Source of the DNA: Bacillota bacterium
GTDB lineage: Bacteria > Bacillota > JADQBR01
Reading direction: 5' to 3'
DNA length: 64,000 nt
Assembly (NCBI GenBank): GCA_016278515.1
Contig: JADQBR010000002.1
Location: 62,001 to 126,000, forward strand
Below, one piece after another: positions 52,574-57,226 of the stretch. The notes under the pieces were generated by a model. That model searched no databases. It was not told the origin of the DNA and saw only the letters and a program-made list of their open reading frames with translations. Position numbers and translations under genes: made by a program. How positions within the stretch are numbered: position 1 is the stretch's first letter; each line of letters opens with the position of its first letter.

Positions 52574-52789
52574 ATGGCAGCTGGACAAAAGACTAACCAA
52601 TTAGTAGTTCCTCAAGCAAAGCAAGCTTTAGAACAATTAAAACAAGAAACTGCAGCTGAAATTGGTATTCAAAACTATCAAGGTTACCTTGGTGATGTTC
52701 CTTCCAGGCTCAATGGTGCAGTAGGTGGTAATATGGTGAAAAAGATGATTCAAGCTTATGAACAAAGCGTTTCTCAACAACAACAATAA
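52574..52789 (+). CDS. Alpha/beta-type small acid-soluble spore protein
   Basis: DNA-coating spore protein of 71 residues: VPQAKQALEQLKQETAAEIGI, then the glycine-rich half GYLGDVPSRLNGAVGGNMVKKMIQAYE. This is the SASP pattern of DNA-protecting proteins, degraded by Gpr on germination. The protease-site residue after Glu is Thr rather than the usual Ile/Val/Phe. The start is ATG behind AAAAGGAGGTGAG. It forms a tandem pair with the next gene. Confidence 0.93.
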   Translation: MAAGQKTNQLVVPQAKQALEQLKQETAAEIGIQNYQGYLGDVPSRLNGAVGGNMVKKMIQAYEQSVSQQQQ

Positions 52790-52826
52790 AAATTATATAT
52801 AAGATTTTTATAGGGAGGTGAATAAA

Positions 52827-53066
52827 ATGGCAGCTGGACAAAAAACAAATCAATTGGTAGTTCCCCAAGCTCAAAAAGCTATGGAACAATTCAAGTATGA
52901 AACCGCTTCTGAAGTTGGTTTAAATTGGACCGGCGGGTATGGTGGTGATATTCCAGCCAGACAATGGGGTCACGTTGGTGGTCAAATGGTGAAAAAAATG
53001 ATTCAATCTTACCAGCAACAAGCTGCAAACACCACTCAAGCTACCCAACCGGGTCCGTTACAATAG
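52827..53066 (+). CDS. Alpha/beta-type small acid-soluble spore protein, tandem paralogue
   Basis: Protein of 79 residues whose first 15 residues are identical to those of the preceding SASP (MAAGQKTNQLVVPQA). It carries KYETASEVGL and a Trp- and Gly-rich second half (NWTGGYGGDIPARQWGHVGGQMVKKMIQSY), plus a Gln/Thr tail. The start is ATG 52827 behind GGGAGGTG. It is 37 bp from its paralogue and probably co-transcribed. A terminator follows. Confidence 0.93.
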   Translation: MAAGQKTNQLVVPQAQKAMEQFKYETASEVGLNWTGGYGGDIPARQWGHVGGQMVKKMIQSYQQQAANTTQATQPGPLQ

Positions 53067-53075
53067 TTAGTAATT

Positions 53076-53110
53076 GAAAAGCGGGTTTTTTAGGAACCCG
53101 CTTTTCTATT
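53076..53110 (+). terminator. Rho-independent terminator after the SASP pair
   Basis: GAAAAGCGGGTT / AACCCGCTTTTC with a 7-base loop, followed by a short T-rich tract. Confidence 0.8.
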
Positions 53111-53197
53111 TAACTATCTTACTGTTATAATGCACAATCTCAGACCTAAATATTCTTTTTGATTGTAAAAAAACTAGAATAAAGAGGAGGGACAGTA

Positions 53198-53344
53198 ATG
53201 AAAAAGAAGAACGAACAACTAAAAAAGAACGAACAACAGAAAAAGGCTAAAGATTTTGAGTTTGCAAAAGAATTAGTAACTCCACAGGATGAAAAATTTA
53301 GTAAAACTGTTAGACCTGAATATGAAGTGTATCCGGGAGAATAA
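53198..53344 (+). CDS. Small basic protein, possibly spore-associated
   Basis: Frame of 48 residues starting MKKKNEQLKKNEQQKKAKDF, then EFAKELVTPQDEKFSKTVRPEYEVYPGE. A strong AAGAGGAGGGA site precedes the ATG and two stop codons end it. Lys/Gln-rich composition and location between SASP genes and gpr suggest a minor spore protein; no family recognised. Confidence 0.55.
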   Translation: MKKKNEQLKKNEQQKKAKDFEFAKELVTPQDEKFSKTVRPEYEVYPGE

Positions 53345-53390
53345 TAATAAATATTGTAAAAAATATTAAAACCAAATTGTGGGAATTAAT

Positions 53391-53429
53391 AAAAAAGGGA
53401 AAAGACCTTTTAGGTTTTTTTCCCTTTTT
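53391..53429. terminator. Bidirectional terminator
   Basis: AAAAAGGGAAAA-ACCT / AGGT-TTTTTTTCCCTTTTT hairpin with A and T tracts on each side, between the small basic protein gene and the convergent gpr. Confidence 0.75.
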
Positions 53430-53437
53430 CAAGATAT

Positions 53438-54415
53438 TTAATGAAGAAAAGCAAGAGCTTCTTCCCAACCTACTCCAGGATGCAAACCTTGGTTTATTCC
53501 TAAAGCCACTGTTTTGGAAGTTCTATCGATTAAGTCATCTATTTCTTTGGGAGTGACAGTTAAGGTGCCCTCAAATGGTTTTAAAATTTCTTTTACCCCA
53601 TTTTCGACCATTTCTTGGGTTAAATGGTTTCTTAAGTTGGGATTGGTTGCTATTACATTAGTAAAAGTCTCATAGGCGAAAACAGCAGCATGAACTACGG
53701 TAGGCACTCCAATTGCGATTACAGGTACACCTAAGGTTTCTTGGTTTATACCTTTTCGTTGGTTTCCTATTCCTGACCCTGGATTAATCCCAGTATCTGC
53801 CAATTGAACAGTTGTGCTAATCCTTTCTACTGCTCTTGCTGCTAATGCATCAATTGCAATTACAAGGCTGGGCTTCACCCTTTCGACTACGCCTCTGATG
53901 ATTTCTGCAGTTTCTATTCCTGTAATTCCCAGTACTCCGGGAGCTAACCCGGCAACAGAGCGCAAGCCCCCTTGAACTGCATCAGGAGCGTACTTATGCA
54001 AGTGACGCGTTACCAAACTACTGTTAATTACTCTTGGACCTAATGCGTCTGGTGTTGCGTCCCAATTCCCCAACCCAACTAGTAATATAGGAGCTTCTTC
54101 ATTTAATTTAAAATTCTTTAACATAGCTTCAAGTTTTTCGCTGATGACATTGCTGACGTCTTGCTGTACGCGGCTATCGTTAAATCGAAGTTCGGGAGCT
54201 TCAATGGTGATGTAGTTACCTTGGGGCTTATTTAATGCAGCTTCACCTTGGGGATTCAAAATACTGATAGTAGTTACCGAACAAAAATCGTGATTTTCTT
54301 TTTTTTCTTTTACCCCTGCTACTTCTCTTTGTGCATCTCCTCTTAACAACTCGTGAGCTTCAACTGCCAGGTCAAGGTTTACACCCATATTATTAAAGTA
54401 GTTTTGTGCTTTCAC
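53438..54415 (-). CDS. gpr: GPR endopeptidase (spore SASP protease)
   Basis: Aspartic-type protease of 325 residues that cleaves SASPs at germination. It begins with a zymogen propeptide region (LDLAVEAHELLRGD) and contains family landmarks LVGLGNWDATPDALGPRVI, GVLGITGIETAEIIRGVVE and VIAIDALAARAVERISTTVQLADTGINPGSGIGN. The start is GTG behind GAGGAGGA. It adjoins its substrates, the SASP genes, and is preceded by a sigma-F/G-type promoter. Confidence 0.97.
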   Translation of the reverse strand: MKAQNYFNNMGVNLDLAVEAHELLRGDAQREVAGVKEKKENHDFCSVTTISILNPQGEAALNKPQGNYITIEAPELRFNDSRVQQDVSNVISEKLEAMLKNFKLNEEAPILLVGLGNWDATPDALGPRVINSSLVTRHLHKYAPDAVQGGLRSVAGLAPGVLGITGIETAEIIRGVVERVKPSLVIAIDALAARAVERISTTVQLADTGINPGSGIGNQRKGINQETLGVPVIAIGVPTVVHAAVFAYETFTNVIATNPNLRNHLTQEMVENGVKEILKPFEGTLTVTPKEIDDLIDRTSKTVALGINQGLHPGVGWEEALAFLH

Positions 54416-54446
54416 ATCTATATCCTCCTCGTTAATAGTCTAGTGT

Positions 54447-54476
54447 TAGTATAAGATAACTTAAAAATTCTTATAC
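54447..54476 (-). promoter_or_regulatory. Sigma-F/G promoter of gpr
   Basis: On the minus strand: GTATA (54476-54472), 18 bases, TATACTA (54453-54447), 32 bp before the gpr start. It fits the forespore consensus GHATR-N18-CATNHTA with one mismatch. Bacillus gpr is known to be controlled by sigma-F and sigma-G. Confidence 0.72.
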
Positions 54477-54497
54477 AATAAAAATGTGGAGGAAAAA

Positions 54498-54707
54498 ATG
54501 TTAAGTCGTAGAAAAGAAACTAAAGAGGAGGAGTTGCAGGTGGAGATAAAATGTATCGTTTGCAATAAAAGAATAGAGATAACCAAAGTGCACAAAGATT
54601 TTCAAAAATTAAGAAAAGACCCATCATTGCCGTTTGTTTGTGACGATTGCAATAATAGATTACGGCACCAGGCTAGAGAGGAACAAAAGCCAAAGCAACC
54701 AATTTAG
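54498..54707 (+). CDS. YlaI-like (DUF2197) zinc-ribbon protein
   Basis: Small protein with IKCIVCNKRIEITKV and FVCDDCNNRLRHQ, a C-x2-C...C-x2-C zinc ribbon of the YlaI type. Two starts are possible: ATG 54498 behind GGAGGA (69 residues), or GTG 54540 behind AGAGGAGG (55 residues, closest to the usual family start). It is divergent from gpr. The csfG-like RNA lies antisense just downstream. Function unknown. Confidence 0.7.
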   Translation: MLSRRKETKEEELQVEIKCIVCNKRIEITKVHKDFQKLRKDPSLPFVCDDCNNRLRHQAREEQKPKQPI

Positions 54708-54708
54708 G

Positions 54709-54826
54709 CATTAAATAAAACGAAGGCGGCTAAGCCGCCTTCGTTGGGAGAGGAGAAACCGGAGGAAGAGCTCATGGGGGAGGGTTATTTTGATAAATAA
54801 CCTCTAAGCTCTTCATTTGGTTTTCA
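54709..54826 (-). ncRNA. csfG: Probable CsfG sporulation-specific small RNA
   Basis: Minus-strand transcript of about 115 nt. A 5' hairpin GAAGAGCT..GGTTATTT / AAATAACC..AGCTCTTC (54765-54814) is followed by a C-rich single-stranded stretch (CCTCCGGTTTCTCCTCTCCC). It ends in a strong terminator hairpin AACGAAGGCGGC / GCCGCCTTCGTT (54719-54745) followed by TTTTATTT. A GTATA-N18-CATAATA forespore promoter sits just upstream. Location upstream of rsmD (ylbH) matches Bacillus csfG, described as a sigma-F/G-dependent RNA in the ylbG-ylbH interval conserved in endospore formers. Identified by position, promoter and structure, not alignment. Confidence 0.75.
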
Positions 54827-54830
54827 CTAA

Positions 54831-54860
54831 TATTATGGACTGCAATTTATAACAATATAC
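54831..54860 (-). promoter_or_regulatory. Sigma-F/G promoter of the csfG-like RNA
   Basis: On the minus strand: GTATA (54860-54856), exactly 18 bases, CATAATA (54837-54831). It is a full match to the forespore consensus GHATR-N18-CATNHTA. Transcription would begin near 54825, directly ahead of the first hairpin. Confidence 0.75.
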
Positions 54861-54963
54861 ATAGGCACCGAATTTTTTTATCCAATAGCTAATCGCTAGT
54901 ACAAAATAAACGGTCGAGTTTTATTCCAAAATGTGCTATAATGCTTTTGATGAGGTGGCATTT

Positions 54964-55503
54964 TTGAGGGTTATTTCTGGTATAGCTAAAGGCAGAAGAT
55001 TGCAGGCACCTAAGGGTCTAAAGACTAGGCCAACTGCTGATAGAGTTAAAGAAGCTGTTTTTAACATAATCTCTCCTTTTATTGGACAAGCCAGATTTCT
55101 GGACTTATTTGCTGGTAGTGGCGGAATGGGTATTGAGGCTTTAAGCAGGGGTGCTAAGTCTGTAACTTTTATAGAGCAAGATTTGGCTGCATTGAAAGTT
55201 ATTAAGGCAAATTTAGACGCCACGGGCCTTGGTAGTCAGGCAACTGTAATTAAGGGTGATGTTTTTTCTGTACTTGCAAATTTAAAAGATGAAGAGTTTG
55301 ATTTAATTTATATAGATCCCCCATATAACCTTAAGCTAGGGGAACGAATATTATCAGAGTTGAAAACGCGTAATTTACCATCTGCGAATTCAATGGTTAT
55401 GCTTGAGGCTATGAGAAAAGAAGAGATCAAGGTTGACAACTTGGAAAAAATCTCAGTTCGCCAATATGGTGATACGGCAGTTTTCTTTTTCAAAAACAGT
55501 TAA
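54964..55503 (+). CDS. rsmD: 16S rRNA m2G966 methyltransferase
   Basis: Protein of 179 residues starting at TTG 54964 (MRVISGIAKGRRLQAP) behind GAGGTGG. It has the SAM-binding FLDLFAGSGGMGIEALSRGA and the catalytic N-P-P-Y-type motif as DPPYNL (YIDPPYNLKL). The usual downstream coaD gene is absent; a coiled-coil gene follows instead. Confidence 0.95.
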   Translation: MRVISGIAKGRRLQAPKGLKTRPTADRVKEAVFNIISPFIGQARFLDLFAGSGGMGIEALSRGAKSVTFIEQDLAALKVIKANLDATGLGSQATVIKGDVFSVLANLKDEEFDLIYIDPPYNLKLGERILSELKTRNLPSANSMVMLEAMRKEEIKVDNLEKISVRQYGDTAVFFFKNS

Positions 55504-55518
55504 TTTGGAGGGGTTAGT

Positions 55519-55992
55519 GTGGAGCAATTGGAGGGTGCGCTTAAGTTAATCGACGACTTGGAAGAATTTGTTATCAATGGAACAAAAGTTCCAATAACAT
55601 CAAAAGTAATTATCGACCAGGATGTAATATTGGAAATAGTTGATAAAATAAGAGGGCTGTTGCCCAGTGAGCTTCATAAGGCACAACAAATAAATAAAGA
55701 AAGAAAGCAGGTACTTCATGAGGCAAAACAAGAGGCGGAAAGAATATTAAATGAGGCACGTTCCCACATTGATAAAATGGTTTCAGAAGAAGAAATTGTG
55801 AAGAGAGCAGAATCCAGAAAAAAAGAAATTATTAGCCAAGCGGAAAAAACAACTCAACAGATAAAAGAAGGATCGACCGTTTATGCTGATGATGTGCTAA
55901 ATAATTTAGAAATTAGTTTAGAAAAGACTTTATCTGTTGTCAGAAAGGGCCGCCAAGAACTCCAGGTTACCAAATCTAGACATGTCAGCTAA
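55519..55992 (+). CDS. Coiled-coil protein (ATPase-subunit-b-like)
   Basis: Protein of 157 residues that is almost entirely predicted coiled coil from about residue 55 onward (SELHKAQQINKERKQVLHEAKQEAERILNEA). Such proteins are often annotated as ATPase or DivIVA-like because of composition. The start is GTG behind GGAGGGG. It lies between rsmD and ylbJ, as similar proteins do in Clostridia. Function unknown. Confidence 0.65.
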   Translation: MEQLEGALKLIDDLEEFVINGTKVPITSKVIIDQDVILEIVDKIRGLLPSELHKAQQINKERKQVLHEAKQEAERILNEARSHIDKMVSEEEIVKRAESRKKEIISQAEKTTQQIKEGSTVYADDVLNNLEISLEKTLSVVRKGRQELQVTKSRHVS

Positions 55993-55996
55993 AGAT

Positions 55997-57226
55997 CTAT
56001 ACTTTAAATCCAAATACACTTTTATACAAAATAGTAAGCACCACAGTTAGGATTAATAACAGTATAAAAACAATACTTAAAAAAAGCGGGATTGCTACAG
56101 CAGCTAGCAAAGTATAGTGATCGCTTGTTATTGTGTTTGGCTGGGGAAAGTACCTAAAAACTGGCTGAGCTGGACCTATCAGGAGAGAAATGAAACATGC
56201 TGCAAGTATACCGTGAGCTAGACGACTTATTATGAACGGCCAGAGACGCAAGTCTGTCTGACCGATGAAACTGGCAATCTGAGCATGGACTGATAAACCA
56301 CTCCAACCTAAGATGACGCTAACTATTATCAACTGCTGATATAAGGGAGCATTAATTTCACTTGCGCTTTTCGCACCTATAGTAACTTCAAACAGTCCTG
56401 CAGCTAAAGACTGAGCTAATTGCTCATTGAATCTGAACCCAAGCAGTATTTGCCCAAACGCGTTACTAATTATAGGAATTATCCCCAACTGTAACAATAC
56501 TTCCAGTATTACGGAAAAGAGGATAATGAACCCACCTATTATACTTAGTGTTTGAACGCCCTTCTTGACAGCATCCCCCAATTGTTGACCGAGAGGTGTA
56601 TTATTTTTGCGTTGTGCATTTAATAGTGCATCGATACTTCTGGAAATAAGGCGGTGAGTTGAGACTCGATGGTTGGTCTGCTCAGGGTCATTATAGCCAT
56701 GGAAACGCAACAATACGCCGATGCAGAGATTAGCAGTATAATGGGAGATTGCAATAATTGTTCCCAACTGAGGATTTTGAAACATTCCAATGGCAACAGC
56801 CCCAAACATGAATAAGGGACTTGCGTTGTTGGTAAAACACGCTAGTCTTTCGCCTTCATTTCTTGTGCATAGGGATTTTTTTCTCAAGTCAGTCGTAAGA
56901 ACGGCTCCAATTGGGAATCCTGAAGTATATCCCATGGCCATGACAAATGCTCCGTTGCCAGGGACGTTGAAAATAGGGCGCATAATAGGTTCAAGCAAAA
57001 CACTTAAAAAATGAACAATTCCAAAGGACATCATTAAATTAGACACTATAAAAAAAGGCAATAATGCAGGGAAAACTATGTTCCACCAAGTATTGAGACC
57101 TCTTAAAGATGCTTCGAAAACTTCTTTGGGAAACACCATTAAAGAAATGAATACTCCAATTAGGATTAATGATTTTATTATTCCTGTTAATGATTTAGAA
57201 GAACGATTATTGATAATTGCTCTCAT
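55997..57226 (-). CDS. ylbJ: Sporulation integral membrane protein YlbJ
   Basis: Membrane protein of 409 residues with about eight helices of the nucleoside-transporter/gate type. GYTSGFPIGAVLTTDLRKK, CFTNNASPLFMFGAVAIGMF and LGWSGLSVHAQIASFI are diagnostic for YlbJ. In Bacillus it is sigma-E-controlled and needed for heat-resistant spores. It is convergent with the coiled-coil gene and divergent from the patatin-like gene. Confidence 0.93.
   Translation of the reverse strand: MRAIINNRSSKSLTGIIKSLILIGVFISLMVFPKEVFEASLRGLNTWWNIVFPALLPFFIVSNLMMSFGIVHFLSVLLEPIMRPIFNVPGNGAFVMAMGYTSGFPIGAVLTTDLRKKSLCTRNEGERLACFTNNASPLFMFGAVAIGMFQNPQLGTIIAISHYTANLCIGVLLRFHGYNDPEQTNHRVSTHRLISRSIDALLNAQRKNNTPLGQQLGDAVKKGVQTLSIIGGFIILFSVILEVLLQLGIIPIISNAFGQILLGFRFNEQLAQSLAAGLFEVTIGAKSASEINAPLYQQLIIVSVILGWSGLSVHAQIASFIGQTDLRLWPFIISRLAHGILAACFISLLIGPAQPVFRYFPQPNTITSDHYTLLAAVAIPLFLSIVFILLLILTVVLTILYKSVFGFKV

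Follow-up and report, generated by a model that had tools for sequence, protein, structure and literature searches.

A probable CsfG orthologue divergent from rsmD in a Bacillota genome and its conserved core among spore formers

Introduction

CsfG is an sRNA of Bacillus subtilis, reportedly described by Marchais et al. in 2011 (RNA Biol 8:358). In the window, by which we mean the whole 64,000-nucleotide stretch of Bacillota DNA analyzed here, an initial annotation had placed a clostridial csfG on the minus strand ahead of rsmD, whereas Rfam describes the same DNA element on the opposite strand. The locus raises the questions of which strand would be expressed, whether the element encodes a CsfG orthologue, and what such an RNA would act on. 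The features that bear on these questions are as follows, in window coordinates.

54486-54707, plus strand: gene for a DUF2197 (YlaI-like) protein, convergent with the element (Pfam PF09963, E 7e-6)
54709-54718, minus strand: terminator tail TTATTTAATG
54719-54745, minus strand: intrinsic terminator with a 12-bp stem
54745-54771, minus strand: nearly invariant 27-nt core GCUCUUCCUCCGGUUUCUCCUCUCCCA, containing C-rich regions 2 and 3 (pattern in 126/299 genomes)
54765-54814, minus strand: 5' hairpin, with an outer helix (54814-54805 with 54774-54765) and a nested inner stem
54714-54824, minus strand: predicted CsfG transcript of ~110 nt, its start placed by inference 6 to 8 nt past the -10 element
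54831-54860, minus strand: sigma-G-type promoter GTATA-N18-CATAATA predicted to drive csfG, an exact fit to GHATR-N18-CATWHTA
54964-55503, plus strand: rsmD (ylbH), divergent from the element (Pfam PF03602, E 8e-55)

Results

The element occupies the intergenic space 54708-54963. Pfam bore out both neighbors named in the initial annotation, the YlaI-like gene and rsmD. The element had also been described as antisense, which is correct for its orientation but not in the sense of overlap, as it lies between the genes. The rsmD N terminus, MRVISG, begins at TTG 54964 with the Shine-Dalgarno (SD) sequence GAGGTGG ahead of it; this codon is most likely the start, rather than the ATG at 54931 where the automatic open reading frame begins. 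The surrounding region (52574-57226) holds a spore gene cluster comprising two tandem alpha/beta-type SASP genes, gpr (germination protease), csfG, and rsmD, and it also encodes a Gate-domain protein resembling YlbJ.

The promoter had been noted previously and was recovered at 54860-54831 as an exact consensus match, one of 3 in the window, where chance alone would give 0.52. Sigma-F promoters carry a GG motif, and this motif was not found in the csfG promoter of the window. The forespore-type promoter of the initial annotation fits the sigma-G consensus, and its use by sigma-F would be conjectural. A second exact match, GAATA-N18-CATTATA (53155-53126, minus strand; region 53155-53076), is directed at the SASP gene at 52818-53066 from its 3' side, with a hairpin ~25 nt downstream of the match, probably the SASP terminator read in reverse; the chance expectation for such a match is 0.5 per window.

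Downstream of the promoter, the hairpin, unpaired C-rich stretch, and terminator of the initial annotation were all reproduced, and no convincing open reading frame crosses the minus-strand element, as had also been claimed. The predicted RNA (54824-54710, minus strand) folds at -46 kcal/mol (z = -9.4), more stably than 200 of 200 shuffled sequences. In this fold, the inner stem of the 5' hairpin is GGUUAUU/AAUAACC with an asymmetric C-rich loop, CCUCCCCC, at 54783-54776, and the C/U-rich stretch at 54764-54746 is mostly unpaired. The clade to which the window belongs has hairpin arms GAAGAGCUUA and UGAGCUCUUC, which enclose this inner stem and leave CCUCCCCC looped out. The terminator stem (54745-54719) is followed by a T-rich tail on the minus strand only.

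When the upstream half alone was shuffled, the fold worsened in the window (p ~0.005) and in 48 of the 79 homologues examined (p <= 0.05), so the 5' pairing appears to be under selection in many lineages but not all. No compensatory changes were counted in the outer helix (alignment A3, in which MAFFT misplaced Bacillus-type arms), because its 3' arm hardly varies; the case for the hairpin therefore rests on the shuffling test and on the polarity of G-U pairs described below. In one family of copies (L044, L045, and L048-L052), the 5' region instead bears GUCUUCAUGGGGAGG or a near variant; its complementarity to CCUCCCCCAUGAGC suggests that the C-rich loop is sequestered there by a lid unlike that of the window.

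To survey the phylum, a lightly degenerate 27-nt core pattern was matched with up to 3 mismatches against 299 genomes. The core was present in 126 of these, representing 83 of 210 genera, while a control pattern read backward matched in only 1 genome of the same set. All 126 core-bearing genomes belong to the 257 with spoIVA, and the core was absent from all 42 that lack this gene (Fisher p = 1e-11, phylogeny ignored). A covariance model of the minus strand, R1, added copies adjoining rsmD that the pattern had missed in spoIVA-positive genomes G005, G011, G029, G047, and G140. Many spoIVA-positive genomes yielded no copy, suggesting that csfG was lost or has diverged past detection in them. 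The conservation in endospore formers stated in the initial annotation holds as a restriction (0/42 spoIVA-negative), with the core matched in 126/257 spoIVA-positive genomes. The core is identical or almost so across the phylum; within it, the 13-nt UUUCUCCUCUCCC is nearly constant, and the 5' half varies freely. The exact form found in the window recurs in Moorella thermoacetica, M. mulderi, M. stamsii, Thermanaeromonas, and a Desulfitobacteriaceae bin, among others. Two cores per genome were seen for L032 (G050:C18) with G050:C4, for G106:C122 with C147, and for L075 with L092 (one MAG); both cores were exact in one case, and the L092 copy has no adjoining rsmD but lies at a contig end.

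Gene order and promoter were conserved along with the core. In most homologous loci, rsmD lies divergent and 81 to 289 nt upstream of the core, and it was within the same fetched stretch in 38 of 43 named contigs; its proximity in related spore formers, on which the initial annotation had partly staked its identification, is upheld. Exceptions include the copy in G044, which adjoins recG instead. Of 78 loci, 33 have a strict forespore promoter ahead of the core (0.24 expected), and 50 have one when the -10 element is defined more loosely (0.58 expected). Promoter and core are separated by ~59 to 71 nt in most copies with a 5' hairpin but by 27 to 34 nt in some short copies (L007, L016, L027, and L028), where the long hairpin cannot fit. 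These short forms apparently contain little beyond the core and terminator, which together look like the minimal csfG unit.

Rfam gave a single significant match, to the plus strand, with RF00516, the "ylbH leader" (E 5e-5); its 32.8 bits fall short of the gathering threshold, which is 50 bits. A family by the name of CsfG, with which the initial annotation had proposed a covariance search, did not turn up in Rfam; RF00516 matched instead. A covariance hit was obtained with R1, built from 18 homologues with the window held out, which scored 88.1 bits (E ~1e-23) at 54814-54745 on the minus strand and 14 bits on the plus strand, although this gap alone cannot settle the strand because R1 was trained on the minus strand. 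RF00516 scored 133 bits on a Bacillus-type copy (L036), over the gathering threshold, which was also reached by a copy of inferred Paenibacillus-like lineage and by 0 of 10 further clostridial copies tested.

If Rfam's typing of RF00516 were correct, the element would be a plus-strand leader acting in cis on rsmD. The RF00516 match itself argues for this, and over 77 loci the plus-strand fold is slightly more stable on average, a measure that does not pick the strand. Against it, a leader would be transcribed with rsmD, and the opposite strand is the one that carries the predicted promoter and terminator. Of the 77 loci, 29 show a T-rich tail after the terminator stem when read on the minus strand and 2 when read on the plus strand, and helix wobble polarity across homologous loci (24 G-U versus 1 A-C) likewise favors the minus strand. 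In B. subtilis, Northern blotting detected the csfG strand alone, the reverse complement of the RF00516 element (PMC3574147), and the ylbH plus-strand leader was undetected by dRNA-seq in B. amyloliquefaciens (PMC4634765). In addition, the copies at L044 (beside a ribonucleotide reductase gene), L045, and L052 have no rsmD next to them. We therefore regard an rsmD leader as highly improbable. Even less credible is a functionless coincidence of a chance hairpin with a chance promoter, for which we found nothing of weight and which is at odds with the conservation of sequence, synteny, and promoter across the phylum.

The window element shares with B. subtilis CsfG its position upstream of and divergent from rsmD/ylbH, a forespore-type promoter, a hairpin, a conserved C/U-rich core, and a terminator. 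It differs in the gene on the other side, which is ylbG in B. subtilis and the DUF2197 gene here. A further point of difference is the promoter, which fits sigma-G and whose use by sigma-F would be conjectural. Bacillus-type copies (L036 and L037) have the same outer hairpin with a short GUUUCCCCA loop and no inner stem, whereas the stem inserted in the window leaves the asymmetric CCUCCCCC loop. Taking together the conserved core, with its C/U-rich single-stranded and loop segments, the location immediately upstream of rsmD (from 54964), a forespore promoter matching sigma-G in the window and enriched across homologues, a terminator on the same strand, restriction to spoIVA-positive genomes, and the R1 match, these data strongly suggest that minus-strand 54824-54714 is a CsfG orthologue, as the initial annotation had concluded; judged from sequence, we hold this identification to be almost certain.

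Discussion

How the RNA would act is a separate matter. Together with RoxS and FsrA, CsfG is classed as an sRNA with C-rich regions, and pairing of these segments with target mRNAs has been proposed for Bacillus CsfG (PMC4409812, PMC8216469). RoxS/RsaE and FsrA resemble CsfG in having C-rich regions in predicted single-stranded parts, and a common mechanism has been suggested (PMC4409812, PMC8216469); the likeness is one of description, and RoxS and FsrA have an unrelated locus and promoter and, unlike CsfG, known targets. For CsfG, no target is known in any organism in the literature consulted (PMC8216469), in agreement with the initial annotation, and csfG disruption caused no obvious sporulation defect (PMC9147052). 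B. subtilis CsfG coimmunoprecipitates with Hfq (PMC3574147), and an hfq gene is present in the genome of the window.

We propose that sigma-G RNA polymerase transcribes csfG in the forespore and stops at the terminator of the gene itself, so that the RNA would be ~110 nt long. CsfG would then act in trans through three C/U-rich regions, namely, CCUCCCCC in the loop, CUCUUCCUCC, which is partly paired, and UUUCUCCUCUCCC, which is single stranded, pairing with G-rich SD leaders of forespore mRNAs and reducing their translation or stability, possibly with the assistance of Hfq. The 5' hairpin would keep the GCUCUUC segment closed while displaying the C-rich loop. Taken as a whole, the proposal of a CsfG orthologue made in the forespore and pairing with SD sequences through its C-rich regions has a probability of about 70% in our estimation. 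The pairing mechanism by itself stands at roughly even odds and is the likeliest one by analogy with this class of sRNA.

The SD pairing put forward in the initial annotation thus accords with published proposals but found no target in our own screens. The target prediction against SD leaders that it had suggested was negative: GGAGAGGAGAAA-N0-9-ATG was not enriched in csfG-positive genomes (28/87, versus 32/112 csfG-negative genomes; p = 0.64). A duplex ranking of 60 window genes did not single out spore genes, with the two SASP genes ranking 3rd and 10th. In the genome of the window, GGGAGAGGAGAAA occurs exactly at one site besides csfG, before a gene for a DUF3267-like membrane protein (L110); there, positions 1501-1516 (G000:C156:44917) are exactly complementary over 13 nt to the 3' part of the csfG core and abut the start codon. 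The site was rejected as target evidence, since across 199 genomes such complementarity was unrelated to whether csfG is present.

SD pairing is weakened by conservation of the 27-nt core far beyond the need of a 7- to 9-nt SD-blocking seed, and the outer helix without covariation in the counted alignment also weighs against it. The near constancy of UUUCUCCUCUCCC makes a protein or ribosome partner conceivable: a CsfG with the same locus and promoter might bind a conserved protein or the ribosome through its core and act by titration. Such a partner would accord with UUUCUCCUCUCCC staying almost constant phylum-wide while the 5' half is free to vary, with mRNA target screens that all came up empty, and with short forms that seem little more than core and terminator. 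However, the sole known partner protein is Hfq, in B. subtilis, and the related C-rich-region RNA RoxS has proven mRNA targets (PMC4409812), and we consider titration unlikely. Similarly doubtful, in our judgment, is a broader view in which CsfG is an ancient regulator of spore formers whose UUUCUCCUCUCCC recognizes one invariant forespore partner, a protein or the translation machinery, and whose 5' half is a dispensable, lineage-specific lid. SD pairing remains the mechanism we favor.

The CsfG family itself is already known. What we consider new are the members described here; the clostridial hairpin variant, which contains an inner stem; the phylum-wide quantitative association with spoIVA; the forms apparently reduced to core and terminator; and, for RF00516, both the error of strand and type and the gap in sensitivity for the clostridial copies tested. 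The newness of the clostridial members is judged apart from the listing in Marchais et al. 2011. As it stands, RF00516 is assigned to the wrong strand and the wrong type in Rfam and fails to recover those copies. CsfG is among the few sRNAs common to spore formers so distant from one another, and its target and phenotype are still sought. Now that it has been recovered from Clostridia that branch deeply (Moorella, Thermanaeromonas, Desulfitobacteriaceae, and others), the part that matters for function can be narrowed to the core, and the 27-nt core together with the lineage-specific 5' hairpins provides comparative material for the search for the partner of CsfG.
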